In this document: piece after piece, positions 535-12,216 of the stretch
Layout of the letters: every line of letters begins with the position of its first letter
How positions within the stretch are numbered: position 1 is the stretch's first letter
Source of the DNA: Bacteroidota bacterium
GTDB taxonomy: Bacteria; Bacteroidota; Bacteroidia; B-17B0; Aurantibacillaceae
DNA: 64,000 bases
Assembly: GCA_021156365.1 (NCBI GenBank)
Contig: JAJNDK010000014.1
Location: forward strand, 1-64,000
Direction: 5' to 3'
Program-made: the position numbers and the translations under genes
Notes under the pieces: model-generated
Database searches by the model: none
What the model was told of the DNA's origin: nothing
Seen by the model: the letters and a program-made list of their open reading frames with translations, nothing else

Positions 535-704
535 TAACAGCATCTAAAACTTATGCGGGCGACATCAAAGCATTTGCAAAAGCAGTCCCTTCGGGAAAGA
601 CATTTATTTATGCTTTGCAAATGTCTATAAAACATTTAGCTTTGTTAAAGCCATTTTGGCAGACAGTGTTTCAAAACCGCACAAGTCTTAGCCGCAAACC
701 GTTA
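535..704 (+). repeat. Cassette hairpin element E1 (family C, 170 bp)
   Basis: It opens TAACAGCA and closes GCAAACCGTTA. It shares an identical 23-base block (561-583) with element E10 (10179-10201), plus the inner inverted repeat GCATTTGCAAAAGC / GCTTTGCAAATG. The left flank (ACTGC before TAAC) would belong to the end of the minus-strand barrel cassette. The right flank GTTATGCGT starts the S41 protease cassette. Confidence 0.8.
614..644 (+). promoter_or_regulatory. Bacteroidota promoter inside E1
   Basis: TTTG (614-617), 19-bp spacer, TAGCTTTG (637-644). This is a full match to the Bacteroidota -33 TTTG / -7 TAnnTTTG consensus, facing the S41 peptidase gene 170 bp downstream. Confidence 0.55.
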
Positions 705-814
705 TGCGTAATAGCCGCGGACAGACATTCCGTTAAGACGACGGGCAATAATTTTTAACATTCTTCGTTCATAGACAAACATAAGTTCATATTTAATATT
801 AACGCCCCTATTCT

Positions 815-2149
815 ATGAAATTTAAATTATTGCTTTTTGTTCTTATTTTTTCACTGACGCTTTCTTTACAAGCTCAGGATAACGGAAAAAAAATGGACTC
901 AAAAGAGATCAAATTATTAGTAGACAGTTTAAGTGCTGCTTTGAAACGTTGGTATATTTATCCCGACCAAGCTGAATTAATAAGCAAAACCATTAAAGAC
1001 AAATACGAGTCGGGCGCTTATGATAACTTACAGAAAAGTACTGAAGTGGCGAACATGATACAGGCCAATATTCAGAAAGTTCATCGTGACGGACATCTGC
1101 GATTAATGTATGCGCCCGGATTTGAAAAGCGCTTGAGCTCTCACTCGGATTCGCAACAAAAAGAAGGTGAAGAAATGAGGTTGAGGGACGAGCAGTCTCA
1201 TTATTTTTATTTCAAAAAAGCAGAAATCATGCCCGGTAATATTGGATACATACGTTGGGATGTCTTTGTTGATAATATCAAAGAAGCCCGACCGATATAC
1301 GAGGCAGCTTTCAAATTAATGTGCAATGCTAAAGCGCTGATCATTGATATGCGTTATAACGGTGGTGGAAATCCCGAAACGGTTAACGCCATGTTAAGTT
1401 GTTTTTTTGATAAAAAATTACCTACGAACCATATCATAAATTACAAGCATGATACCGTGAAATATTATACCGATCCTAACCTAACAGATTTTAAATTGAA
1501 AATGCCCGTATACATCCTTACTGGCAAAAATACATTTTCGGGAGCAGAAGGTTTTGCCTATGCCATGAAAGTTGCTAAACGCGCCACTATTGTAGGCGAC
1601 ACTACGCGTGGGGGCGCGCATCCTACACAACCTTTTCCACTTGGACAAGGATTTGTAATGGATATCCCTAACGCTCGTTCTTATAACGAAATTACTAAAA
1701 CCAATTGGGAAGGTACTGGCGTTTATCCAGATGTATCTATTAAAGCCGAACATGCATTTGAAAAAGCGCAACTGTTGATCGCCAAAGATCTCTTGGCAAA
1801 AGCAGATGGCAAGGAAGAAAAACAACAGACACAAGGCATCCTGACAATTGCCGAAAATAAGTTAGCACTTGTACAAAGTAGCGGACCGAATTTTACTCCG
1901 GAACAGCTTCAGAAATTTTGTGGTCAATTTAACCCTGGTCTGACCATCGTTTTAAAAGGTAGTTGCCTTTACAGAAGTATTCCCGGTCAACCGGATTGCA
2001 AGCTAACTCCAATAAGCAATACTCGCTTTGTTTTGGATAACGACGAAGCTTACCGGTACATTGATTTTACCATAGATAAGAATGACAATGTTTCCGGCCT
2101 GAGCATCAATCGCATCGGTGCAAGCTTTTCTTACGATAAGGCGAAGTAG
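815..2149 (+). CDS. Exported S41-family (tail-specific/CtpA-like) serine peptidase
   Basis: 444 residues with a signal peptide (1-21, ending SLQAQ). The S41 core is clear: an N-terminal helical segment (30-100) with the 'VHRDGHLRL' motif at 89-97, the strand 'IGYIRWDVF' near 143-151, 'ALIIDMRYNGGG' at 174-185, and the nucleophile elbow 'NTFSGAEGFAY' with the likely catalytic Ser242. The following 'GDTTRGG' and 'GTGVYPDVSI' motifs are also S41 signatures. There is no obvious PDZ domain. A C-terminal extension of about 100 residues (345-444) has beta-rich character and no firm family. Expected activity is periplasmic or surface proteolysis; the substrate is unknown. It is the sole gene of its cassette (701-2190), whose ends match over 9 bases and then, after the 2-base mismatch, 7 more. 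Confidence 0.88.
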   Translation: MKFKLLLFVLIFSLTLSLQAQDNGKKMDSKEIKLLVDSLSAALKRWYIYPDQAELISKTIKDKYESGAYDNLQKSTEVANMIQANIQKVHRDGHLRLMYAPGFEKRLSSHSDSQQKEGEEMRLRDEQSHYFYFKKAEIMPGNIGYIRWDVFVDNIKEARPIYEAAFKLMCNAKALIIDMRYNGGGNPETVNAMLSCFFDKKLPTNHIINYKHDTVKYYTDPNLTDFKLKMPVYILTGKNTFSGAEGFAYAMKVAKRATIVGDTTRGGAHPTQPFPLGQGFVMDIPNARSYNEITKTNWEGTGVYPDVSIKAEHAFEKAQLLIAKDLLAKADGKEEKQQTQGILTIAENKLALVQSSGPNFTPEQLQKFCGQFNPGLTIVLKGSCLYRSIPGQPDCKLTPISNTRFVLDNDEAYRYIDFTIDKNDNVSGLSINRIGASFSYDKAK

Positions 2150-2186
2150 ATCATAATTATCTTACCTGTGTGGCGGCTACAACGCA

Positions 2187-2362
2187 TAACAGCACCTACT
2201 GGCCATTGGGCGGAATCGGTCATCGCCGCGCGCTATTGACAAGGTCGCTTCGCAAAATTTAATTTACGGCGGCTAATAAAGTTGGGTATCTTTAAATAAC
2301 CTTTTGTCGGTTAAGGAAGATGGTGCTTCGAAAGCCGAACGGCCAGTAGCTGCAAACCGTTA
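2187..2362 (+). repeat. Cassette hairpin element E2 (family B, 176 bp)
   Basis: It opens TAACAGCACCTACTGGCC and closes GGCCAGTAGCTGCAAACCGT then TA, so CTACTGGCC pairs with GGCCAGTAG and the 3' side carries an unpaired CAAACC next to GTTA. The body is closely related to E7 (6587-6764). The left flank AACGC belongs to the S41 cassette; the right flank GTTATGCCT belongs to the DUF1990 cassette. Confidence 0.85.
2263..2294 (+). promoter_or_regulatory. Near-consensus Bacteroidota promoter inside E2
   Basis: TTTA (2263-2266), 20-bp spacer, TATCTTTA (2287-2294). Both boxes deviate from TTTG / TAnnTTTG at one position. It faces the DUF1990 gene. Confidence 0.4.
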
Positions 2363-2393
2363 TGCCTCACCCTAAAAGACGACACGACAAAGA

Positions 2394-2963
2394 ATGAAGA
2401 TTTATCTAACAGACCAAAAAAATAAGTTCAAACAACATCTTGACTTTTTAAAGACCAAGAACGTAATGACCTATGACAAGACTCGGCTGACAGAGAAAAT
2501 CACGACCATTGAAATCAACACGACTAAGAAAATTGACCAACTAAATCTTGCTTTTCTGTTCGACTATCAAATATTCCCTGACAACATTATGACCTTTAAA
2601 AACCAGTGGACAGACGAGAATAGAAAAATGAAAAGTGGTGACACAATCGCACAACAAGTATACATTCCACCAACAAAGACATTTTCACAGAAAATAATTT
2701 TTGGAGTAAGAATAAACGAAATCATAGACCAAGACAACAGAAAAGGATTTAGTTACGAAACACTTGAAGGACACGTTGAAAAGGGCATTTCGACTTTTAC
2801 TGTTGAGACACTCGACAACAAAGTTATTTTTAAAGTTCAGACCTACTCGACACCAGGAAATATTTTGACAAAATTACTCGGACCGATTTTCTCTGTACCT
2901 TATCAGACATTTTGCACAAAGACAGCATTGAAAAACGTAAAACGACAATTAGAAACTCAATGA
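2394..2963 (+). CDS. DUF1990 domain protein
   Basis: 189 residues with no signal peptide, probably cytoplasmic. The C-terminal two thirds match the DUF1990 family: 'SGDTIAQQVYIPP' (about 82-94), the conserved 'GFSYETLEGHVEKGISTFTV' stretch (about 118-137) and a closing segment of the 'TYSTPGNILTKLLGP' type. DUF1990 proteins have no established biochemical role. The gene fills its cassette (2359-2998) almost completely, beginning 35 bp after GTTA. The cassette ends match over 9 bases (GTTATGCCT), but the extra pairing seen in other units is weak here. A+T-rich codon use contrasts with the chromosomal genes beyond 12 kb. Confidence 0.8.
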   Translation: MKIYLTDQKNKFKQHLDFLKTKNVMTYDKTRLTEKITTIEINTTKKIDQLNLAFLFDYQIFPDNIMTFKNQWTDENRKMKSGDTIAQQVYIPPTKTFSQKIIFGVRINEIIDQDNRKGFSYETLEGHVEKGISTFTVETLDNKVIFKVQTYSTPGNILTKLLGPIFSVPYQTFCTKTALKNVKRQLETQ

Positions 2964-2994
2964 AAAGGACGACAGAAAAAGAAGAGCGAAGGCA

Positions 2995-3119
2995 TAACAC
3001 ACGTTTGGCGCAATGGGGGCTGACATCGTTAATTGAAAGTTTGTGCTTCTATTGTAATTCGTGCTGGCAGACAATTTAGTTTTCCAAAATCCCCCACTGC
3101 GCCAAGCGTGGGAACGTTA
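2995..3119 (+). repeat. Cassette hairpin element E3 (125 bp)
   Basis: It opens TAACACACGTTTGGCGCA and closes TGCGCCAAGCGTGGGAACGT then TA. CGTTTGGCGCA pairs with TGCGCCAAGCG, and GGGGG (after GCAAT) pairs with CCCCC. No close relative lies in this window and no TAnnTTTG promoter is evident. Confidence 0.8.
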
Positions 3120-3151
3120 GCGGCAAAGCTAAACAGACGACATAACAAACA

Positions 3152-3673
3152 ATGATAACTAATAAAACAGACTTTTTCAACGACCTTTCAAATCAGATTT
3201 CAGAGCCATTATATCTGACTGACAAGACTGACGAATTAGATGAAGAAATTAATCATAATCATTGGGTTTTATCTGCTACAGCCGACATTATATCTCAAAC
3301 GACAACAACTGACTTTTTAGAATTTATACAAAAAGTAAAGGGCCATTATAAAAATCAACTCGACAAATCACAACTTGATATTGACCTAATATTTTATCTG
3401 TGGTTTGACGAAATGGCTGGACAACTTAGTTTCAATTTTATAAACTCAAATCACGACAAACTTCCATTTGGTTGCAAACTAAAACATACTGACAGACCAG
3501 AAGAAATAGTTGACCTATATTTGAAATCAAAATATCATGAAGGAATTCCATGGAACGAACTTGAAACGATTGAAACACCAGAACAAATAGCGGAAGCAGA
3601 TAGACTTGAAAAAGAATTACACGACAATTTTGTATTGACAGTTTACCAAGAAAAAATAAAGAAACAGAAATGA
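3152..3673 (+). CDS. Hypothetical cytoplasmic protein (cassette cargo)
   Basis: 173 residues, acidic, no signal peptide or membrane segment. I do not recognise a family. The sequence has an N-terminal helical segment, a central 'DIDLIFYLWFDEMAGQLSFNFIN' stretch that looks like strands of an immunity-protein-like or DUF fold, and a C-terminal charged helix ('IAEADRLEKELHDNF'). It is the single gene of cassette 3116-3696 and starts 36 bp after GTTA. Small acidic proteins of this kind are common cassette cargo and are often immunity proteins or antitoxins, but that is inference. Confidence 0.7.
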   Translation: MITNKTDFFNDLSNQISEPLYLTDKTDELDEEINHNHWVLSATADIISQTTTTDFLEFIQKVKGHYKNQLDKSQLDIDLIFYLWFDEMAGQLSFNFINSNHDKLPFGCKLKHTDRPEEIVDLYLKSKYHEGIPWNELETIETPEQIAEADRLEKELHDNFVLTVYQEKIKKQK

Positions 3674-3692
3674 CGGACAGAAGCTCAGCTGC

Positions 3693-3815
3693 TAACAGCA
3701 CCTACAAGAAATTGGCGGTTAAGTGGTTAAATGAAGCTTTGTGCTTCGTATCAAGTTCAGTGGTGGCAGACAGTTTTCGGCTTCGAAATCGCCAACTTCT
3801 TGTAGCAAAACGTTA
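3693..3815 (+). repeat. Cassette hairpin element E4 (123 bp)
   Basis: It opens TAACAGCACCTACAAGAAAT and closes CTTCTTGTAGCAAAACGTTA. CTACAAGAA pairs with TTCTTGTAG, TTGGCG pairs with CGCCAA, and CAAAAC is unpaired on the 3' side. The inner part has GAAGC...GCTTC hairpins. No clear promoter. The right flank GTTAGTGGT starts the next cassette. Confidence 0.82.
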
Positions 3816-3826
3816 GTGGTAATTTT

Positions 3827-4387
3827 ATGATGAGCGTACTGAAAACAATAATAATATCGACACTTTGCTTTAGCACTCTTTCTTCTCAGACAAAGCCCGA
3901 CACCATTAATAGGCTTAATTCGAAACATAAAAAAGAGGGTTTCTGGAAAGTTTATCTAACAGACTACTTAATTGAGACGGAAGATACTACCCAAGCTTAT
4001 TATTTTGCTTATGATTATTTCGTTAACGGGCACTTAATTATTTGGACTTCATCAGCACAATATTATAAAAAGAAAGCTATCCGTGTTACTACCGACAATC
4101 AATCTAACAAGGGACAGCCAGTATTATTAAATGGACATTTTCAATTTTATTACAGTAATGGACTTGGGCTTGAAGCAACTTATAAGGGAGGTCTTCCGGT
4201 TTTAGACTTAACAATTGGCTCTAACACTTTGGGAAAATCTGTAACTATCGAATCCTTGGATTATTCAAAAAAATATAAGAATCAATTTGGATCATTTTTA
4301 TATGAAAGATTTAATCTAAATGGCGACTGCACTTACAGACGTTGGCGCTATTATAACGCTAAAGGACGTTTAAAGACAACGAAGTAG
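3827..4387 (+). CDS. Exported hypothetical protein with MORN/YwqK-like motifs
   Basis: 186 residues; the start MMSVLKTIIISTLCFSTLSS is a signal peptide. The body contains 'SKHKKEGFWKVYLTD', 'NGHFQFYYSNG' and 'YYNAKGRLKT', which resemble the [K/H]-x-G-x-W-x-x-Y and Y-x-N-G-[K/R]-L motifs of MORN_2/YwqK-type repeats. It would fold as a small beta-sheet protein outside the cytoplasm. It starts only 15 bp after the GTTA of E4, so its cassette (3812-4405) is almost all coding. The next cassette (4610-5665) carries a longer protein with the same type of repeat, in a separate cassette. Function unknown. Confidence 0.72.
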   Translation: MMSVLKTIIISTLCFSTLSSQTKPDTINRLNSKHKKEGFWKVYLTDYLIETEDTTQAYYFAYDYFVNGHLIIWTSSAQYYKKKAIRVTTDNQSNKGQPVLLNGHFQFYYSNGLGLEATYKGGLPVLDLTIGSNTLGKSVTIESLDYSKKYKNQFGSFLYERFNLNGDCTYRRWRYYNAKGRLKTTK

Positions 4388-4401
4388 ATAAAAACAACCA
4401 C

Positions 4402-4584
4402 TAACAACGGGCAATTGCGCCTTGCGGGTTTTGAGGTAGGGCTTTGGCTAAATTAAGGCTTGCGCTAAAGCGCATATTTTAAGTTTTGCCGCCGCTTTAG
4501 AAAGTGTTATCTTCGTTTAAACATTTGTGGGTTTAAAAACGTTGAGGCTTCGGTAGCCGCACAGCGCAAGCCCGTAAAACGTCG
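4402..4584 (+). repeat. Cassette hairpin element E5 (family A, 183 bp)
   Basis: It opens TAACAACGGGCAATTGCGCC; the 3' side carries GCGCAAGCCCG and then TAAAACGTCG. The body is nearly identical to E6 and E9. It is the only intact element whose closing box is GTCG instead of GTTA, and the following cassette start does not match its own end. Confidence 0.85.
4485..4515 (+). promoter_or_regulatory. Bacteroidota-like promoter inside E5
   Basis: TTTG (4485-4488), 19-bp spacer, TATCTTCG (4508-4515). The -7 box deviates from TAnnTTTG at one position. It faces the 351-residue YwqK-like gene. Confidence 0.4.
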
Positions 4585-4609
4585 TAGCAAAATCAGACTG
4601 ACCCTAAAA

Positions 4610-5665
4610 ATGAAGAAAATAATAATATTGACTCTTATCTTGACTTCCACTTTTTCATCTTGTTACAGCCAGACAGAAGAAGATAAAAAGAAGATTGAAC
4701 AAGAAACTCTAATTGCCTTAAAAAAGTGGTTTGAAAATCCTTCGATAACCAATGACCTTCTGGACCCAGCCATTATTAAACAACTTCAAGACAGCGGAAG
4801 TATTGAAAACGGTCTAAAAGTAGGCTATTGGGTTCACTATTCACTTGACACTTCATTAATGGGCCAACAAACAGAATTAATTGTTGGCGACAAGAAATTA
4901 CCAATGAACTTTTCAGCGACTTTGCAAAAAGAAACTGGCAATTACATAAAAGGAAAAAAGAATGGTGTTTGGACACTTTACAAATCGAATGACAAGAAAC
5001 CTCCATTTTATTGGAATCGGAATTCGATGATAAATTATAATGCTGGTCTTAAAGACGGGGAAGAGATAAATTATCAAGGTTACGGTATCGAGTATCAAAA
5101 ACCGTTAATAGTTAGACATTGGAAAAACGATATTGAAAATGGTATTGGCAAAATTTACGATTACAATTACCCATATAATTTGCAAAAACTATATAACGCA
5201 GTTGACGGACAAATGTGGCTCATCGAGGCTTATTATTCAAGTGGACAATTACAAACAAAATACAATGACACCACGATTAGCAGACAGAAATACAAATACT
5301 TTAAAGAGTATTTTGAAAGCGGAAAGTTAAAAGCGACTGGATTTTATTTAAACGGGGAACAGCCATTTGGAACTTGGACAAATTACTATGAGAATGGAAA
5401 AATTGAAAGTATAGCCAATTATACAAATGGTATGTTAACCGGTAAGTATAAATACTTCCACGACAACGGACAACTTTGGACAGCAAGAATTTATAAAGAC
5501 GGGAATTTATTAGAAGTGATTTCTAATTCTAACAAAAAAGGAAAAAAGAATAATCCAGGAACAATTAAGAAAGGGACAGGCACAGTAAATATTTATGACG
5601 CAGACGGAAAACTAACTAAAACTATCGACTATGTTAATGGCCAAGAGTTGAAGGGCAACCGATAA
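4610..5665 (+). CDS. Exported MORN_2/YwqK-repeat protein
   Basis: 351 residues. The N-terminus has a signal sequence ending FSSCYSQ, compatible with either a lipoprotein (Cys at position 18) or cleavage after YSQ. At least five degenerate MORN_2-type repeats are visible: 'GNYIKGKKNGVWTLYK', 'GLKDGEEINYQG', 'YFESGKLKATGFYLNGEQ', 'YYENGKIESIANYTNGMLTG' and 'YFHDNGQLWTARIYKDGN'. Such repeats occur in Bacteroidota proteins labelled YwqK-family 'antitoxins', although most lack a demonstrated toxin partner, and none is present here. The TAA stop (5663-5665) is made from the TAAC that opens the next hairpin, so gene and element overlap. The cassette's 5' junction is degenerate (GTCG). Confidence 0.8.
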   Translation: MKKIIILTLILTSTFSSCYSQTEEDKKKIEQETLIALKKWFENPSITNDLLDPAIIKQLQDSGSIENGLKVGYWVHYSLDTSLMGQQTELIVGDKKLPMNFSATLQKETGNYIKGKKNGVWTLYKSNDKKPPFYWNRNSMINYNAGLKDGEEINYQGYGIEYQKPLIVRHWKNDIENGIGKIYDYNYPYNLQKLYNAVDGQMWLIEAYYSSGQLQTKYNDTTISRQKYKYFKEYFESGKLKATGFYLNGEQPFGTWTNYYENGKIESIANYTNGMLTGKYKYFHDNGQLWTARIYKDGNLLEVISNSNKKGKKNNPGTIKKGTGTVNIYDADGKLTKTIDYVNGQELKGNR

Positions 5666-5844
5666 CAACGGGCAATTGCGCCATGCGGGTTTTGAGGTAG
5701 GGCTTTGGCTAAATTAAGGCTTGCGCTAAAGCGCATATTTTAAGTTTTGCCACCGCTTTAGAATTGTTATCTTCGTTTAAACATTTGTGGGTTTAAAACC
5801 TGTTCGGCTTCGGTAGCCGCACAGCGCAAGCCCGCAGCACGTTA
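5663..5844 (+). repeat. Cassette hairpin element E6 (family A, 182 bp)
   Basis: It opens TAACAACGGGCAATTGCGCC; the 3' side carries GCGCAAGCCCG and ends GCAGCACGTTA. CGGGCAATTGCGC pairs with GCGCAAGCCCG apart from a 2-base bulge. Nearly the same as E5 and E9, although the three cassettes carry unrelated genes. The right flank is GTTAGTGGT. Confidence 0.87.
5746..5775 (+). promoter_or_regulatory. Bacteroidota-like promoter inside E6
   Basis: TTTG (5746-5749), 18-bp spacer, TATCTTCG (5768-5775). The -7 box has one deviation. It faces the DUF4259-like gene. Confidence 0.38.
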
Positions 5845-5887
5845 GTGGTAATGTGCCTGGACATCGAACTTAAAAAAACATTTTAGC

Positions 5888-6565
5888 ATGACATGGGGAT
5901 ATAAATCTTTAGACAACGAAGCTGCAATTGACGTCCGAGAACTTTGGGGACTTTATTTTAAAAAACCTGGCGACGAAGATCATGTCTTTCGTAAATTGAA
6001 ACTTAGGTGGGCAGACGCCGTAAACTATGGCGACTACACGACAAACAGCCAAATAATTGCTCTGTACGAAATTTATAGGCAAAACAATTTATCTATTCCA
6101 AAAGACTTAAAGACTTTTACCGTTGACGCCATTAATCGCGAGTTGTTAGAGGACAATCTCGAAGGATGGGACGAAAAAACCGTTAGACAAGAAACGCTTT
6201 TGGAATACCTGAAAACTGTTGGTGGAAAAGTTAAGAAGCCGACCAAGCCAATTTTCTATAACAACAAAGCAATTCCATATAAAAACGACGAGACCGCAAT
6301 AAATGAACTGATGAAGCTTACTAAACTTAAAAAAAGGTTCGGCTTCACTCTCGACATACATGAAAACCCAGACATGCCACAGTTTATAAAAACGTTAGAC
6401 CGTTTAATGACTTATCATGTTTGGCAAGCAGACACAAATACACACACGGCATCTTTTGCGCAAAGAAGAATGATGTTGGCTTTATATCTCGGCATGACAA
6501 ATGACTATTCCGAAGATCAAATTAAAAAATTACTTGAGGACTGTAAGCTGGACAACTGGAAATAG
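5888..6565 (+). CDS. Hypothetical protein with DUF4259-like N-terminus
   Basis: 225 residues, cytoplasmic, no signal or membrane segment. The start 'MTWGYKSLDNEAAIDV' resembles the opening 'M-x-x-W-G-x-x-[F/L]-[D/E]-[N/S]-[D/E]-x-A-x-[D]' of DUF4259 proteins, but the rest is longer and mostly helical, with 'FTLDIHENPDMPQFIKTLDRLM' and a C-terminal helix-rich tail. I do not recognise the second half. It is the only gene in cassette 5841-6590. That cassette's ends match as GTTAGTGGT, mismatch AA/TG, then TGTGCC, one of the cleanest pairs in the array. Confidence 0.7.
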   Translation: MTWGYKSLDNEAAIDVRELWGLYFKKPGDEDHVFRKLKLRWADAVNYGDYTTNSQIIALYEIYRQNNLSIPKDLKTFTVDAINRELLEDNLEGWDEKTVRQETLLEYLKTVGGKVKKPTKPIFYNNKAIPYKNDETAINELMKLTKLKKRFGFTLDIHENPDMPQFIKTLDRLMTYHVWQADTNTHTASFAQRRMMLALYLGMTNDYSEDQIKKLLEDCKLDNWK

Positions 6566-6586
6566 CTATGTGCGGCACACAACCAC

Positions 6587-6764
6587 TAACAGCACCTACT
6601 GGCCATTGGGCGGAATCGGGTCATCGCTCGCGCGCAATATTTCGGCCACTTCGTGACATTTTATTTGCGGCTCACTAAAAAACATTTGTATCTTTAAATA
6701 ACCTTTGGTCGGTTAAGACAGGTGATGCTTCGTAAGCCCGCCTGGGTCTATTCGCCAAACGTTA
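6587..6764 (+). repeat. Cassette hairpin element E7 (family B, 178 bp)
   Basis: It opens TAACAGCACCTACTGGCCAT, as E2 does, but its closing side (CTATTCGCCAAACGTTA) has diverged, so the proximal stem is weaker. Left flank ACCAC (end of the DUF4259-like cassette), right flank GTTATAAGC (start of the HAD cassette). Confidence 0.82.
6664..6696 (+). promoter_or_regulatory. Bacteroidota promoter inside E7
   Basis: TTTG (6664-6667), 21-bp spacer, TATCTTTA (6689-6696). It faces the HAD hydrolase gene. Confidence 0.42.
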
Positions 6765-6776
6765 TAAGCAACCAAA

Positions 6777-7400
6777 CTGAAGACATCGAATTCATATAAA
6801 GCAATCATCTTCGATTTAGGAAAAGTAGTCTTCGATTTATCTTTTGACCGAACTTTTCAATATTGGGCAAATATTTCTGGCAAACAATTTAACGACATCA
6901 AAGACAATTTTTCCTTTGACTCAATATTTGACAAATTTGAACGCGGAGAAATTTCTCCGGAATATTTTAGACGCGTTATTTCAGAGAAACTTGACATTAC
7001 ACTTACAGACGAACAATTTGATGCTGGGTGGTGCGACCTGTATTTAGACACTTATACTGGTATTGACAATTTATTAGACTCATTAAAACGCAATTACAAA
7101 ATTGGGGCACTGACAAATACAAACGTAATCCATAAAAAAGTTTGGGAACCAAAATATGCCGACACCTTGAAGTATTTTGAAAAAGTATTTTCTTCGCCCG
7201 ACATGCAGACCCGGAAGCCGGAAAAAGAAGCATATCAAATTGTTCTTAACCATTTTAAAGTTCAACCTTCGGAAACACTTTTTTTAGACGACAACGCGGA
7301 AAATATTGCGGGCGCGAAGAAATTGGGAATAAGAACAATTTTAGTAACGACACAAGAACAAATGTATAGCGACCTTCGGACGTTGGATTTGATAAGCTAA
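6777..7400 (+). CDS. HAD-superfamily hydrolase (YihX-like) with no standard start codon
   Basis: The reading frame opens after a stop at 6765 and runs to TAA at 7398-7400. It encodes all HAD motifs: motif I 'IIFDLGKVVFD' (Asp at about residue 13; Gly instead of the second Asp, as in YihX-like members), motif II 'LTNTN' (about 112-116), motif III Lys in 'TRKPEKEAY' (about 147) and motif IV 'FLDDNAENIAGA' (about 169-180). No ATG, GTG or TTG precedes motif I. The best candidate is CTG at 6777, giving a start (M)KTSNSYKAIIFDLG of normal family length (207 residues). The CTG lies 16 bp after GTTA, next to the cassette arm. Either it starts at CTG, or an ATG was lost by mutation or at the junction. 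Predicted small-phosphate-ester phosphatase; substrate unknown. Confidence 0.8.
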   Translation: MKTSNSYKAIIFDLGKVVFDLSFDRTFQYWANISGKQFNDIKDNFSFDSIFDKFERGEISPEYFRRVISEKLDITLTDEQFDAGWCDLYLDTYTGIDNLLDSLKRNYKIGALTNTNVIHKKVWEPKYADTLKYFEKVFSSPDMQTRKPEKEAYQIVLNHFKVQPSETLFLDDNAENIAGAKKLGIRTILVTTQEQMYSDLRTLDLIS

Positions 7401-7417
7401 GTGTGTTTGGCAGCTTA

Positions 7418-7596
7418 TAACACACGGTGTGGCGACCAGCGGGCGGACACGGCACATCTCGGCGAACAAAGTTAGTTGCCCCTTCGGGAAATTTATTTGT
7501 TGCCGCTAATTTTGTTTGGTATCTTTAATAAACGTTTTAGGGTATAGACGATTGAGTGTTTCAAAGCCCCGCCGATCGCCAACCGTGAAACCGTTA
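7418..7596 (+). repeat. Cassette hairpin element E8 (179 bp)
   Basis: It opens TAACACACGGTGTGGCGA and closes ATCGCCAACCGTGAAACCGT then TA. CACGGTGTGGCGA pairs with TCGCCAACCGTG with a small bulge, and GCGGGC (after CCA) pairs with GCCCCGC. The inner sequence has a CCCCTTCGGG hairpin. Left flank AGCTTA, right flank GTTAGCAGT. Confidence 0.85.
7496..7527 (+). promoter_or_regulatory. Bacteroidota promoter inside E8
   Basis: TTTG (7496-7499), 20-bp spacer, TATCTTTA (7520-7527). It faces the T9SS beta-helix gene, which starts 230 bp downstream. A second TATCTTTA (7715-7722) lies closer to that gene but without a good -33 box. Confidence 0.42.
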
Positions 7597-7758
7597 GCAG
7601 TAATTTATAAAAGCAAAAAGAATTCATGAACCATGGCCTTATAAGCCTTGCTTATCACGACAAGTATTTGAATTACCTATTAGACAGTTTAAAACTCAAT
7701 TCGCCAAAAAGCTTTATCTTTACACGTATAAGATCTATGTTATTATAACACTATATAT

Positions 7759-9504
7759 ATGAAAAAATTATTTCTAATGCTCTCAGTGCTATTTACGATA
7801 TCTCAATCACAAAGTCAGACAATCGTTCCCGGTGGTTTGGTAAGTGGGATTTGGCCGGCAAGTGGTTCGCCGTATCTAGTTCAGGGTGCAATTATGATTG
7901 CCAATGGTAGCACGCTCACTATTGATCCTGGCGTAAGAGTTGAATTTCAAGGGAGTTTTAAGTTTCTGGTATTGGGTCGACTACTTGCGATTGGTAATGC
8001 AACAGACAGTATTACATTTACGGCAATTAATCCTTCAACAGGTTGGTTGGGAGTTCGTTTCGACAATACATCGTCAATCAACGATTCGAGTAAATTTTAT
8101 TATTGTAATTTCAAATACGGTAAAGCTACAGCAAGCTATCCAAATAATGAGGGCGGCGCATTGTATTTCGATAACTTTTCAAAGGCTATCATATCAAACT
8201 CATTAATAAAAAACTGTTATGCGAGTTCAAATGGAGGAGGAATTTATTGTAACCACCAAAGCAATATTAAAATTTCTAACAATACCTTTGCTAATAATTC
8301 GGCAGACGGCCATGGAGGTGGTATTTACCTGCAAGGGTGGTCAAACGCAATCGTAACAAACAATTTAATTACCAATAATATCACATTAGGCAATGGCGGT
8401 GGAGCATATATCCATACTGCAACTCCTCTTTTCACCAATAATATAATAAGTGCAAATGTTGCTGCCTTAAGCGGTGGGGGAATACTTTGTCTTAGTGGGA
8501 TCTTTAAAAACAACTATATCATTAATAATGTTTCTCAAACAAGTAATGGTGATTATCAATATGGAGGTGGAGGGATGATTATCTTTGCTGGAAGCGACCC
8601 TGTAATAATCACACACAACATTATCAGTAACAATACCAGTAACAATATGGGTGGAGGTATTTATTGTTATGCAGCCGGTGCATCCATTGGAGAAATAAGC
8701 AACAATATTATTTCCAATAATGTTGAGACCACAAATTTCGGAGGCGGAGGCGTAGCTTTTGTTTATTCCGATATCCCAATGATTAACAACACCATTTCAA
8801 ACAATAGCGCACAAACTGGAGGTGGAATTCTTTTCTATTCATCAAACCCGCGTGTTCAAAACAATATTGTATGGGGAAACACGTCAGTTACTACCGGAAA
8901 TCAAGTATACTTTTTTGATGAACCCGCTGATCCGAACTTTTACAATAACGATATTGAAGGAGGACAGGGAGCATTTGGAGTAAACAGTAACGTCTTCTAT
9001 CTTGGCACTTACGTTAACAATATCAATTCAGATCCTCAGTTCAATGCTCCATCTGCAGGAAGTGGAAATGCTTTTAATGGTTCAACAGCCAATTGGACCC
9101 TGCAGCAAACCTCTCTTTGTATAGATGGTGGAAGCATACAAAACATTACTTACCCGGCAACTGATATAGCTGGTAATCCCAGATTAGCAGGTAGCTCCAT
9201 CGATATAGGAGCTTATGAGGGAGTCGGCTTGATTGGCATCTCAGAATTATTTGGAACGAAAAAAAGTATTGAAATCTACCCCAACCCTTTTTATAATGAA
9301 GCAACAATTCAGTATGATGATAAATGGAATTTTTCTGAGGTTCGCATTTACAATATTTTCGGACAAGAAGTAAAGAACATAAAAACAGTTGAGGGTGAAA
9401 CAATAAAAATTCAAAGGGATGATTTACCTGCAGGAATATACATCCTTAAGCTAACAAGTAATAATATCACCTTTGCAACGGGAAAGATCATCATTACAGA
9501 TTGA
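7759..9504 (+). CDS. T9SS-exported right-handed parallel beta-helix protein
   Basis: 581 residues. Signal peptide (1-19, ending SQSQS). Residues about 60-380 are repeated 'NGGGIYC...NNTFxNNSA' turns, the hallmark of right-handed parallel beta-helices (pectate-lyase-like/polymorphic outer-membrane protein fold), with stacked Asn ladders. Residues about 415-490 ('DPQFN ... CIDGGS ... DIAGNPRLAGSSIDIGAYE') match the choice-of-anchor Q domain. The last 80 residues ('IEIYPNPFYNEATIQY ... GIYILKLTSN ... KIIITD') are a type A T9SS C-terminal sorting domain. Expected to be attached to or released from the cell surface; it could bind or cleave polysaccharide, but no catalytic residues are identifiable. 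At 1.7 kb it is unusually large for a single-gene cassette (7593-9525). Confidence 0.88.
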   Translation: MKKLFLMLSVLFTISQSQSQTIVPGGLVSGIWPASGSPYLVQGAIMIANGSTLTIDPGVRVEFQGSFKFLVLGRLLAIGNATDSITFTAINPSTGWLGVRFDNTSSINDSSKFYYCNFKYGKATASYPNNEGGALYFDNFSKAIISNSLIKNCYASSNGGGIYCNHQSNIKISNNTFANNSADGHGGGIYLQGWSNAIVTNNLITNNITLGNGGGAYIHTATPLFTNNIISANVAALSGGGILCLSGIFKNNYIINNVSQTSNGDYQYGGGGMIIFAGSDPVIITHNIISNNTSNNMGGGIYCYAAGASIGEISNNIISNNVETTNFGGGGVAFVYSDIPMINNTISNNSAQTGGGILFYSSNPRVQNNIVWGNTSVTTGNQVYFFDEPADPNFYNNDIEGGQGAFGVNSNVFYLGTYVNNINSDPQFNAPSAGSGNAFNGSTANWTLQQTSLCIDGGSIQNITYPATDIAGNPRLAGSSIDIGAYEGVGLIGISELFGTKKSIEIYPNPFYNEATIQYDDKWNFSEVRIYNIFGQEVKNIKTVEGETIKIQRDDLPAGIYILKLTSNNITFATGKIIITD

Positions 9505-9521
9505 TGAAGTTAAACTACTGC

Positions 9522-9704
9522 TAACAACGGGCAATTGCGCCATGCGGGTTTTGAGGTAGGGCTTTGGCTAAATTAAGGTTTGCGCTAAAGCGCAGTTATT
9601 TAGTTTTGCCGCCGCTTAAGAAAGTGTTATCTTCGTTTAAACATTTGTGGGTTTAAAACCTGTCCGGCTTCGGTAGCCGCACTGCGCCAAGCCGCAAAAC
9701 GTTA
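9522..9704 (+). repeat. Cassette hairpin element E9 (family A, 183 bp)
   Basis: It opens TAACAACGGGCAATTGCGCC; the 3' side carries TGCGCCAAGCCGC and ends AAAACGTTA. Body nearly identical to E5 and E6. Left flank TACTGC, right flank GTTATAAGC. Confidence 0.87.
9605..9635 (+). promoter_or_regulatory. Bacteroidota-like promoter inside E9
   Basis: TTTG (9605-9608), 19-bp spacer, TATCTTCG (9628-9635), as in E5. It faces the CdiI-like immunity gene, which starts about 90 bp downstream. Confidence 0.4.
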
Positions 9705-9724
9705 TAAGCAATTTAGAAACACGA

Positions 9725-10138
9725 ATGAAGAAAAACAAATTTGACATATCTTGGAGACAAAAAACGCTTGAGGTTTTAGAAAATAACAAATGGCTTGACG
9801 AAAAAGAATATCCAACCGGACTTGTGAGGAGGTGTTATGAGTATAGAAAAATCCCTGTTGGCAAATTGACTGTTGGAGAGTTGCGGACATTAATTGGACA
9901 AAACATAGGTCTAAAATATTTAATACCAATAGCAATTGAATTTTTGGCAACCGATGTTCTGATTGAAGGAGATTTATATTCTGGAGACTTGCTAGAATCA
10001 GTGTTGAAGATTGACAAAAACTTCTGGACTCAAAATTTAAATCTCAAGGAACAAATTATTGATTTGATAAATTTAAATGGTGACAAAATAAAGAGTGAGA
10101 ACCTTGACCTTGATAATTTTGTGGCAATGAACTCTTAA
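9725..10138 (+). CDS. Contact-dependent inhibition (CdiI-type) immunity protein
   Basis: 137 residues, cytoplasmic. The middle, 'KLTVGELRTLIGQNIGLKYLIPIAIEFL' followed by 'EGDLYSGDLLESVL' (about 47-100), matches the conserved core of the contact-dependent growth inhibition immunity family (CdiI_3-like), which neutralises a toxin delivered by neighbouring cells. No CdiA, Rhs or other polymorphic toxin gene lies next to it, so it is an orphan immunity gene that could protect against non-self toxins. It is the sole gene of cassette 9701-10155. The cassette ends match over 14 of 16 bases, the cleanest in the array. Family assignment is from motif recognition only. Confidence 0.82.
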   Translation: MKKNKFDISWRQKTLEVLENNKWLDEKEYPTGLVRRCYEYRKIPVGKLTVGELRTLIGQNIGLKYLIPIAIEFLATDVLIEGDLYSGDLLESVLKIDKNFWTQNLNLKEQIIDLINLNGDKIKSENLDLDNFVAMNS

Positions 10139-10151
10139 GCTAAACTGCTTA

Positions 10152-10314
10152 TAACAGCACCTACCAGTAATGCGGGCAGACATCAAAGCATTTGCAAAAG
10201 CGGTAGACAATTAATCATTTCTGCTTTGCAAATGCATAGGAACAGTTATCTTTGTTAGGAAGCATTCGGTAGAAAACGGCCTTGAGCCGCACTATTGGTA
10301 GCTGCAAAACGTTT
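10152..10314 (+). repeat. Cassette hairpin element E10 (family C, 163 bp)
   Basis: It opens TAACAGCACCTACCAGTA and closes TATTGGTAGCTGCAAAACGT then TT. CTACCAGTA pairs with TATTGGTAG (one G-T wobble). It shares the 23-base block with E1. The closing box is GTTT, and the following sequence does not match the next TAAC flank, so the right-hand junction is damaged. Confidence 0.83.
10225..10254 (+). promoter_or_regulatory. Bacteroidota promoter inside E10
   Basis: TTTG (10225-10228), 18-bp spacer, TATCTTTG (10247-10254), a perfect TAnnTTTG -7 box. The gene it would drive is only a remnant. Confidence 0.5.
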
Positions 10315-10316
10315 GA

Positions 10317-10454
10317 AAACGCAATCAACATTCACAGGACAAACCTAAATATACAATTGTTTATCCCTGGGTTAAATATGCAAAAGCAAGTGTAAACAAA
10401 AATTCAAGAAATTTATGGGCTGTGTTAGTCAAAGAAAAGATATTCATATTGTAA
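10317..10454 (+). pseudogene. Remnant coding fragment in a decayed cassette
   Basis: An open frame without a start codon, beginning just after a stop at 10314 and ending with TAA at 10452-10454, encodes about 45 residues including 'YTIVYPWVKYAKASVNKNSRN'. The cassette between E10 and the TAAC at 10496 is only about 190 bp and its two ends no longer match. This suggests an internal deletion that removed the 5' part of the gene. No family recognised. Confidence 0.3.
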
Positions 10455-10495
10455 GTTTAAATCTCGACAATCAGAATTTTTAATGTAACTACCGC

Positions 10496-10640
10496 TAACA
10501 GCAGTATAGCAAAATAGCCGGTTTAGTGCTAAATTCAACGGAAGTTCTTCGTTTGAAAATTTGTGTAAAACTAAACATTTGTACACCGGTTTCCATGATC
10601 ACCGAACTAAATATCCGGCCCGGAATTCATCGGGGTGAAG
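10496..10640 (+). repeat. Degenerate cassette hairpin element E11
   Basis: It opens with ACTACCGC then TAACAGCA, a good left junction, followed by A+T-rich sequence with a CCGGTTTAG ... CACCGGTTTCC stretch and ATTTG motifs like those in family A. No closing CGTTA is found, and the downstream side runs into unrelated sequence. I read it as an element whose 3' half was lost. The right boundary given is approximate. Confidence 0.45.
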
Positions 10641-10730
10641 CCTGCGTGTTTTTGGAAAGGGTCTTTTGCGATAGAATTCCCAAGGCGACTGGTTTAAACT
10701 TTATGTTTTAAATAGCGACAGTAATACAAA

Positions 10731-10955
10731 CTATTTAAGATCACACCCTCCGCCGAAAGCTTCGGCGTTTCGGTCAATTACCGCGCAGGAATCCTCCTGT
10801 TGATCGCGGGGAAGAGATTTTAAGTCGAAGTGCTTTTTATCGCCACTTACATATTTACAGTAGCAGTTTCCTTTTTCCTTCTTACGGCAGGCCGCCGTAG
10901 AAAGTGAAATCGATAAAATGATTATTAGTGATACTATTGATGAAAAATTTCTCAT
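10731..10955 (-). CDS. Small putative lipoprotein
   Basis: 74 residues. The N-terminus 'MRNFSSIVSLIIILSISLSTAAC' is a lipoprotein signal peptide with the lipobox STAAC (Cys at 23), followed by Arg-Lys-rich 'RKKEKGNCYCKYVSGDKKHFDL' and several further Cys residues (four after the lipobox). It reads against the array direction. The ATG at 10953-10955 is well placed, and the signal sequence argues for a real gene. Family not recognised. It could be cargo of the eroded cassette ending at E12 or chromosomal sequence that intruded when the array decayed. Confidence 0.6.
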   Translation of the reverse strand: MRNFSSIVSLIIILSISLSTAACRKKEKGNCYCKYVSGDKKHFDLKSLPRDQQEDSCAVIDRNAEAFGGGCDLK

Positions 10956-11050
10956 AGTTTGCTCATTTTCAGTTACAAATACATCTGTTGCAAAGTTTAT
11001 GCCTGCAATTGTTTGTATTGTTTGGGTAATTCGGGGAAATCCTTACCATA

Positions 11051-11246
11051 ATGTACACAGCTACGTTTACTATAAGTGATGCTGATAATGATACAATGAG
11101 CTTTCAAATTGCAAGCAGCAATACATCTTTAATTCCAATTACAACTATTTCAATTACAAATATTGATAGTGTTTACACCCTGAATTATTCCGTTGTAAAT
11201 AATCAAACAGAAACAACCACTATGGATCAGTTGAAAGAACGGCAGG
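11051..11246 (+). pseudogene. Fragment of an exported repeat-domain protein
   Basis: The frame encodes 'MYTATFTISDADNDTMSFQIASS...' with 'ITNIDSVYTLNYSVVNNQTETT', which resembles one beta-sandwich (Ig/cadherin-like) repeat of a large surface protein. There is no signal peptide, an in-frame stop (TAA) directly precedes the ATG, and the frame runs into unrelated sequence at about 11246. I treat it as a fragment left by a deletion. Confidence 0.4.
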
Positions 11247-11323
11247 TAACATTGTGCAATCGCCAGGCGGCGAAAAATTGCTATCTTTGAGAACGGGCGT
11301 CTGCGCATGCCCGCGGAACGTTG
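11247..11323 (+). repeat. Possible degenerate short cassette element
   Basis: TAACATTGTGCAATCGCC at the left, TATCTTTG (11282-11289, perfect TAnnTTTG) in the middle, and GCCCGCGGAACGTTGTGCG at the right give a 77-bp segment laid out like the other elements. Internal pairing is poor, and the flank after GTTG does not match the arm before E12. Listed as tentative. Confidence 0.3.
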
Positions 11324-11348
11324 TGCGAAATCCTTAAAACGATCAACT

Positions 11349-11909
11349 ATGCGAAAAACAATACTTCTTCTATTGATCATAGCTGGAACTGCGGCAGTGA
11401 TCTACGGAATCGTTGCGTATATTGGAATTTTGGGATTTTTGTCAGCATGGATCCTGAATTTTATGTTGATGATGTGCGTCTTTATTTTTACCGAAACCTT
11501 GAAATCAAAATTTGCTTCCGATTACTACAAAGAACAAAAATGGGAAGCCAAAGGGAAAATTTATGAGAAGTTTGGGATCAACATTTTTCGCAAACTCCTT
11601 GTTTTTATCGGTTGGGAGAAACTAAATAAAAAAGCAAATCCGGTCAGGAATAATATCGAAGCTCTCGCCCATTTAGAATACAGAACAAAACAATCGGAAT
11701 TAGGGCATGTGATTATATTCGTGATCGTTTTAGCATTCACAATTTACGTCGCTATAAAATATGGAATTGCAGAAACACTTTGGCTGGTGCTGTTGAATAT
11801 AATTCTTAATGTTTATCCGATCCTGTTACAGCGATATAATCGACCGAGATTGCAACGAGCGCTAAACTTAATAAACTATAAACAAGAACGATCGCACAAC
11901 AATGGCTAA
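11349..11909 (+). CDS. Membrane protein, CrtO-type acyltransferase-like
   Basis: 186 residues from the ATG at 11349; an upstream in-frame ATG at 11307 lies in degenerate sequence and gives an unlikely non-hydrophobic leader. It has four hydrophobic segments, two near the N-terminus and two near the C-terminus. The motifs 'NIEALAHLEYRTKQSELGH' and 'NIILNVYPILLQRYNRPRL' resemble the R-x-x-E-x-x-H and N-x-Y-P-x-x-x-Q-R-x-N-R signatures of the glycosyl-4,4'-diaponeurosporenoate acyltransferase (CrtO) family, often found in Bacteroidota outside carotenoid clusters. No carotenoid genes are nearby, so the substrate is unknown. It is probably the last cargo gene of the array, ending about 125 bp before E12. 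Confidence 0.6.
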   Translation: MRKTILLLLIIAGTAAVIYGIVAYIGILGFLSAWILNFMLMMCVFIFTETLKSKFASDYYKEQKWEAKGKIYEKFGINIFRKLLVFIGWEKLNKKANPVRNNIEALAHLEYRTKQSELGHVIIFVIVLAFTIYVAIKYGIAETLWLVLLNIILNVYPILLQRYNRPRLQRALNLINYKQERSHNNG

Positions 11910-12035
11910 CGAAAATCCCTTGTTTTTTGCTGTTTCTGACACGACTCATGTTAAGATTCAACGAAATCAGGTTCGTGGTAAAAAGAATCAGGACAAGTTA
12001 AGAACCAATTGTAACCATCATTACGCCACAACTTA

Positions 12036-12110
12036 TAACAGCAAACAATCGTAAGCGCCTTTTACCTATATTTGTTTGAGAAGGCGCCTACGACTGCTCA
12101 CCAAACGTTA
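12036..12110 (+). repeat. Terminal short cassette hairpin element E12 (75 bp)
   Basis: It opens TAACAGCAAACAATCGTA and closes CACCAAACGTTA. TCGTAAGCGCCTT pairs with AAGGCGCCTACGA with a single bulge. At 75 bp it is within the usual size range of integron attC sites. The loop contains TATATTTG (12067-12074). Left flank ACTTA; right flank GTTAGCAGTAATAA, for which no matching end occurs downstream, so it marks the right end of the array. Confidence 0.75.
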
Positions 12111-12130
12111 GCAGTAATAAACACCCCGCT

Positions 12131-12174
12131 CCGATTTCTATGTTTAAAACAAATGTTTTAAACATAGAAATCGG
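12131..12174. repeat. Perfect 21-bp inverted repeat (44-bp palindrome)
   Basis: The arms 12131-12151 and 12154-12174 are perfectly complementary with a 2-base centre (12152-12153). It starts 20 bp after the closing GTTA of E12, at the junction of array and chromosome. No T-run follows it, so it is not a standard terminator. It could be a cruciform or protein-binding site, or a resolved recombination product. Confidence 0.85.
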
Positions 12175-12216
12175 AACACCTGCCTCAAAATATCTCTGCT
12201 CCGGAGCTTTGAATTT

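Follow-up and report, generated by a model that had tools for sequence, protein, structure and literature searches.

A gene-cassette array without integrase in a Bacteroidota genome and a probable integron-like system with its own recombinase in related bacteria

Introduction

In the genome of a Bacteroidota bacterium assigned to the Aurantibacillaceae (GCA_021156365.1), a run of unrelated genes is separated by long hairpin elements, which raises the question whether these genes are cassettes of an integron and, if so, which enzyme assembled them. The run occupies positions 535 to 12,110 of the window, i.e. the whole stretch of DNA analyzed, which covers the initial 64 kb of contig C23 (JAJNDK010000014.1; G000:C23:1-64000) and starts at contig base 1; the genome comprises 5.31 Mb in 23 contigs. 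The original prediction, made from the letters alone, described an integron-like array of excisable cassettes whose recombinase is unusual or located elsewhere in the genome. With a probability of about 0.9, sequence comparisons identify the array as an integrase-less gene-cassette cluster of a Bacteroidota integron-like system, whose platform in relatives carries a tyrosine recombinase named BIR for convenience. The distinctive traits of the system are an 11-nt outer arm with a fixed mismatch in its recombination sites, the layout of the platform and the recombinase, not the pairing of cassette ends across the gene. Since BIR was tested for the patch of the integron integrase IntI and lacks it, the system is called integron-like.

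Results

Hairpin-bounded cassettes in the window

Elements resembling attC sites were searched as TAACA followed 55-230 nt on by CGTT[AG], with complementary bases just inside and a score of at least 11. On both strands of the whole window seven elements were recovered, all on the + strand and all within 535-12,110. The same scan returned none in the other 52 kb and none on the - strand, and a triplet-shuffled control of 640 kb yielded no match at this score and two at 9-10. This confirms the predicted location of the array. The pentamer CGTTA alone is not enriched in the window (94 found, 109 expected), and its count is uninformative. A relaxed scan added E5 and E10, which end in CGTCG and CGTTT, and E7 and E9 retain the ends and the body but combine arms of two types on their 5' and 3' sides (arm scores 6 and 7). 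The window thus holds at least 11 elements with no recombinase within the array, which agrees with the definition of clusters of attC sites lacking integron integrases (CALIN), i.e. at least two attC sites and no integrase beside them. Ten intact elements, each beginning with TAAC and ending with CGTTA, had been predicted. Their number was reached, but E5 and E10 have decayed 3' cores; nor are all ten intact hairpins, because the arms of E7 and E9 belong to different types. E7 and E9 look chimeric, as if attC sites had recombined via similar centres.

The flanks of the elements match across the gene, as had been claimed. Over the 11 nt after GTTA in ten consecutive element pairs, 76 of 110 positions agree between the cassette start and the reverse-complemented end of that cassette, compared with 36.7 for random pairings, and none of 20,000 permutations reached 76. 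The two flanks of one element match at only 3.0 of 11 positions, which is the chance level, and therefore differ as predicted. Matching cassette ends, whose disappearance in related arrays would have spoken against the prediction, persist there: among 125 cassettes from many genomes, start and end agree at 9.14 of 16 positions, with a mean of 4.55 and a maximum of 5.18 in 1000 shuffles. In MAFFT alignments of whole elements the arms were poorly aligned because the arm types differ, and structure was therefore assessed by arm pairing against shuffles in place of a covariance model. In an unbiased element set the inner arms pair (13.85 for own arms, 6.64 for shuffled ones). Rfam 15 gave no RNA family match on the window, only chance matches.

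The outer arm in BIR-type arrays, the 11 nt beyond GTTA, carries a fixed A/C mismatch at position 7, which never pairs in the BIR set (A at the start in 98%, facing C in 79%), and position 6 pairs in 42%. In the canonical control, which consisted of IntI loci from other classes of the phylum, the cross-cassette arms match over about 7 bases, at positions 1-7 after GTTA (16 cassettes). Cassette-specific arms had been taken as a mark of novelty; the 11-nt arm with its mismatch is indeed distinctive, but cross-gene pairing as such is normal in canonical integrons too. Promoters inside the elements had likewise been proposed. The Bacteroidota-type -7 box (TAnnTTTG) occurs in 30 of 162 long elements, compared with 8 for the opposite strand and 9.4 in shuffled sequences; inner promoters therefore exist, but not in every element.

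The recombinase BIR

Several genomes of the same family are strongly enriched in the pattern AAMCGTTANNNGYAA relative to a reversed control and carry long arrays of the same elements, e.g. 16 in 15 kb. Adjoining the arrays is BIR, a tyrosine recombinase of 345-415 amino acids that shares the C-terminus of a relic on contig C4 of the genome studied here. At least 575 relatives were recovered from 84,980 named species genomes; the best 80, nearly all from Bacteroidota, were kept. BIR has three parts, namely an N-terminal domain of roughly 60 residues, a SAM-like domain and a catalytic domain. KDR and LRHS are separated by 61 residues in the BIR set, compared with 102 in 12 of 12 IntI sequences; the 41 missing residues lie where IntI has its I2 helix, and the IntI patch is therefore absent from BIR. 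Array-head recombinases reach 194-210 of 265 bits against TIGR02249, with the patch columns missing and the match breaking there. The suggested search for a tyrosine recombinase thus led to one that is linked to related arrays, but the IntI-type patch expected of it is missing. In a maximum-likelihood tree BIR and IntI form separate clades (100/100 each); the two Xer sequences of the genome itself are long branches in this tree, and no deep rooting is claimed. The best matches of BIR are XerA in the PDB (5hxy) and XerA in NCBIfam (NF040815).

The N-terminal domain is predicted to fold as beta-beta-alpha-beta-beta-alpha (pLDDT 84.5). Among 31 members, PF07443 (HARP) was matched below threshold in two (E 0.008) and DUF5710 below threshold in ten. 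The first Foldseek match was the HARP domain of SMARCAL1 (4o66), which was not significant (E=0.25, prob 0.69), and VIA-align 2 returned nothing above Z 4.7, with HARP not among the matches listed. Any role of this domain in reading folded DNA is conjecture. More remote relatives of BIR at three loci (L083, L084, L085) have related N-terminal regions and an attI-like GTTANNN..CAA just after the stop codon. On account of these sites, the system may extend beyond the BIR clade.

Platform architecture in relatives

For the architecture of the platform, 78 named BIR loci were scanned for attC-like elements and 71 loci were examined for attI and promoter. Downstream of the recombinase, 107 elements are located on the same strand and none on the opposite strand; two were found upstream in 740 kb, and a shuffled control gave three. 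At least one element is present at 38 of the 78 loci. In the canonical control, 21 of 24 attC sites are upstream and opposite. A -7 box like that of a cassette promoter (Pc) directly follows the BIR stop codon at 54 of 71 loci, compared with 1-2 in neighbouring windows and 6.4 in shuffled sequence. The predicted promoter TTTG-N17-22-TAnnTTT spans the stop codon at 47 of the 71, its TTTG being supplied by codons of the conserved SPFD C-terminus. The attI site is repeat-rich, ends in TATAWACWA|GTTANNNGYAA and is positioned 89-104 nt past the BIR stop in 52 of 53 recovered sites. The complete platform in relatives is co-oriented, with BIR, promoter and attI followed by cassettes of one or few genes with their attC, and the promoter spanning the end of the BIR gene would serve as the cassette promoter. 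BIR, attI and at least two attC-like elements are also located on a 66-kb plasmid of Chryseobacterium sp. SNU WT5 (L216).

Recombinase relic and other sites in the same genome

No integron integrase is visible in the array, as had been noted, and a profile search found none over the TIGR02249 cut-off in the whole genome. Matches to TIGR02249 and PF00589 were limited to XerC/D-like genes, other recombinases and the relic on C4. This contig begins with a 77-aa recombinase C-terminus, the BIR relic, after which attI is still in place. The relic, together with BIR, attI and promoter in relatives, agrees with the expectation of a recombinase that is unusual or encoded elsewhere. Since BIR is reduced to a relic and several attC sites are decayed, the array is probably static now or dependent on a recombinase supplied from outside.

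Further sites occur in this genome. On contig C20, at about 106,999-107,960 on the - strand (L080), an attI-like site and a Pc-like box precede a single cassette without recombinase; the predicted empty site is TATAAACAAG|TTATAAGCAAAAAGC. A second array at the start of contig C9 (G000:C9:1-2300, L041) adjoins an apparent tmRNA gene. At the contig end of C20 (138,490-138,693, L071), the 3' half of an attC is fused to the first codons of an MBL-fold-like gene, which may be a secondary-site insertion or an assembly artefact. The end of C20 may join the contig of the window: by eye, the cassette ends on the two look alike, while a count that was misaligned by one base gave 3 of 11.

Shared cassettes and resistance genes

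Pelobium manganitolerans and Flavobacterium denitrificans share a 1435-bp cassette with 93% identity; it lies inside an array in the former and at attI in the latter. The alignment covers exactly the cassette length, and both junctions are within GTTA. A tet(X) cassette that starts identically in each case, with G|TTATGTGCC, follows attI in Acinetobacter, an attC in Empedobacter and another attC in Riemerella; in plasmid pHH1107 the tet(X) cassette begins with G|TTATGTGCCATTTTTGAATGAC after attI. Since one and the same cassette is found in several contexts, with its two junctions in GTTA, movement of cassettes as units cut at G|TTA is regarded as shown by these alignments.

In pHH1107 and the Acinetobacter plasmids, the upstream gene annotated 'TnpF/xerD' groups with a sister clade of BIR. 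The order in tet(X) regions, TnpF followed by Pc-like box, attI, tet(X) and attC, is that of the BIR platform, and pHH1107 keeps a fragment of the sister recombinase with a Pc-like box beside its attI. Elements resembling attC also delimit lnu(I), a RelE-HTH pair, an OXA gene, tet(X5) and estT on Riemerella plasmid pRCAD0416RA-1; the sequence read stops short of the distal end of estT. Across the resistance-cassette loci of Acinetobacter and pHH1107 (L217, L218), Empedobacter (L262), Riemerella (L263) and Empedobacter falsenii (L264), cassettes with attC-like ends carry tet(X3), tet(X5), estT, lnu(I), an OXA gene and the RelE-HTH pair. Resistance genes such as tet(X) appear to have been packaged by a BIR-type system. 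In Riemerella anatipestifer, aph(3')-IVb with a 140-bp attC-like 3' region was inserted without homology by an unexplained mechanism (PMC13148043, 2026), and the BIR system is a candidate for this homology-independent gene capture. The literature searched draws no link between mobile tet(X) or the capture in Riemerella and an integron platform.

Distribution and comparison with known systems

Canonical IntI exceeded the cut-off in one of 150 relatives and in 84 of 296 genomes of the phylum, only one of the latter belonging to the class of the window. The BIR profile at E<=1e-95 matched 49 of the 296, among them 26 of this class; these are profile matches, the lower-scoring ones being candidates by profile score. 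The BIR system is found across Flavobacterium, Pedobacter, Chryseobacterium and many uncultured Bacteroidia. For Bacteroidetes proper, the IntegronFinder 2.0 survey listed a single complete integron, that of Salinibacter (PMC9024848); in the non-Bacteroidia classes of the phylum canonical IntI is far commoner (84/296) than this single case suggests. No Bacteroidota integron of the BIR kind was described in the literature searched, the scope of which excluded subscription papers and preprints.

Canonical integrons (classes 1-4 and sedentary chromosomal) and the BIR system have in common a tyrosine recombinase, an attI, a promoter at the integrase end and cassettes with attC hairpins, as well as start/end pairing, mostly single-gene cassettes on one strand and the junction G|TTA. 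The elements also resemble canonical attC sites in their paired R boxes and an inner stem of variable sequence. In contrast, BIR forms a separate clade, lacks the 41-residue patch and possesses an extra N-terminal domain; its attI and cassettes are downstream and co-oriented, whereas the control layout is mostly divergent; and the outer arm has 11 nt with the fixed A/C mismatch, accompanied by a Bacteroidota-type promoter that is sometimes inside attC. The window array resembles CALIN in the absence of a nearby integrase, but its sites are of the BIR lineage and not of a lost IntI, and a BIR relic with attI is present elsewhere in the genome. With XerC, XerD and XerA, BIR shares a catalytic domain without IntI patch, but differs from them by its N-terminal domain, its own attI and its position at the array head; host XerC/D are encoded in the genome as well.

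Gene content of the array

The cassette genes (Table 1) are mutually unrelated and all on one strand, as in other cassette arrays, except that the gene of the cut first cassette appears to be on the - strand. Directly after the array end, at 12,128-12,177, a near-perfect A+T-rich hairpin resembles a terminator.

Table 1. Cassette genes and attC-like elements of the array, in window coordinates.
Feature	Position	Strand	Evidence or remark
First cassette, 3' part, cut by contig start	1-534		gene appears on - strand, about 1-434
attC-like E1, 170 bp	535-704	+	element scan
S41 peptidase, 444 aa	815-2149	+	Pfam PF03572 E=4.7e-28
attC-like E2, 176 bp	2187-2362	+	element scan
DUF1990 protein, 189 aa	2394-2963	+	PF09348 E=9.5e-17
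attC-like E3, 125 bp	2995-3119	+	element scan
Hypothetical protein, 173 aa	3152-3673	+	open frame
attC-like E4, 123 bp	3693-3815	+	element scan
Hypothetical protein, 186 aa	3827-4387	+	open frame
attC-like E5, 3' core decayed to CGTCG	4402-4584	+	relaxed scan
MORN-repeat protein, 351 aa, stop codon overlapping E6	4610-5665	+	PF07661 E=7.2e-12
attC-like E6, 182 bp	5663-5844	+	element scan
Hypothetical protein, 225 aa	5888-6565	+	open frame
attC-like E7, arms of different types, poor hairpin	6587-6764	+	relaxed scan
HAD-like hydrolase; frame extends upstream to ~6799 without obvious start codon	7167-7400	+	PF13419 E=6.7e-11
attC-like E8, 179 bp	7418-7596	+	element scan
Secreted beta-helix protein, type IX sorting domain, 581 aa	7759-9504	+	PF13229, PF18962, TIGR04183
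attC-like E9, arms of different types	9522-9704	+	relaxed scan
CdiI_3-like immunity protein, 137 aa	9725-10138	+	PF18616 E=8.7e-27
attC-like E10, 3' core decayed to CGTTT	10152-10314	+	relaxed scan
Possible decayed short-type element, weak arms (score 6)	11248-11332	+	by eye resembles element C9:656-731
Hypothetical membrane protein of last cassette, no family match	11349-11909	+	open frame
attC-like E12, 75 bp, last in array	12036-12110	+	element scan

Discussion

According to the favoured explanation, the cassettes of the window would once have been assembled by BIR acting on hairpin attC sites and attI. The enzyme would recombine a folded attC hairpin with attI or with another attC, and excised cassettes would be circles in which the outer arms complete the attC, whose outer arm then extends 11 nt past GTTA. 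In hairpin recognition, the role of the I2 helix of IntI may be taken over by the N-terminal domain or by the outer arm and its fixed mismatch. IntI gained single-strand recombination with the I2 helix (PMC7790495); XerCD, which has no such domain, integrates a phage site in folded single-stranded form (discussed in PMC4792948), and a patchless enzyme is therefore possible. Several observations weigh against an assembly by BIR. Only position and conservation tie the enzyme to the arrays, the genome of the window lacks an intact BIR, and E5, E7, E9 and E10 are decayed or chimeric. At 40 of the 78 loci no attC-like element is present as far as the contig reaches, which in many cases is less than 1 kb, and the insertion experiment in Riemerella identified no recombinase (PMC13148043).

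It is very unlikely that the array is an ordinary attC cluster of a canonical integron whose IntI was lost or is encoded in a missing part of the genome. The ends TAACA and AACGTTA are indeed of canonical type, the same scan finds class 1 attC sites, and one genome of the same family (G024) has a canonical IntI. Yet IntI over cut-off is absent from the genome itself and nearly so from its relatives, although the arrays are common in the family, and the recombinase adjoining such arrays, where present, is BIR. The arm length of 11 nt with a fixed mismatch, compared with about 7 in the canonical control, and the opposite layout point in the same direction. The IntI of G024 was rejected as the missing integrase: it comes from one genome of 150, which is 6% contaminated, and its contig carries no array-type elements.

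Slightly less improbable is a scenario in which the hairpins are cassette sites moved by another recombinase, such as host XerC/D or the uptake machinery in competent strains, with BIR as a passenger. It draws on the lack in BIR of the very helix that turned IntI to single-strand recombination, on the capacity of XerCD for a folded phage site and on the absence of a named recombinase in the Riemerella insertion. A passenger would not readily account for the strict order and orientation of recombinase, Pc, attI at 89-104 nt and attC sites (107:0 on the same strand), nor for the fragment of the sister recombinase retained next to attI in pHH1107. Dispersed hairpin repeats or terminators (REP/MITE-like) between unrelated genes, which would not be recombination sites at all, might be suspected from the long imperfect hairpins between genes and from the near-identity of E5, E6 and E9. 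However, the flanks pair across the gene and not across the element, the elements keep to a single strand and begin at attI, entire cassettes with both junctions at GTTA are common to different genomes, and no Rfam family was matched, so that this explanation is hardly credible.

Beyond the window, it is moderately likely that the Bacteroidia possess an integron lineage of their own, in which the folded attC is read without I2 helix, via an N-terminal, possibly HARP-like domain and the 11-nt mismatched arm. Cassette capture in the class would then depend mainly on the BIR system, which would also have packaged the tet(X), estT, lnu(I) and OXA genes now carried on plasmids of pathogens. If true, an integron works without the domain that is held to be the key step in integron origin, and this origin therefore becomes testable in a second lineage. 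The presence of an 'xerD' beside mobile tet(X) would be explained by tet(X3), tet(X5), estT, lnu(I) and an OXA gene residing in cassettes of the BIR system, which surveillance tools based on IntI will miss.

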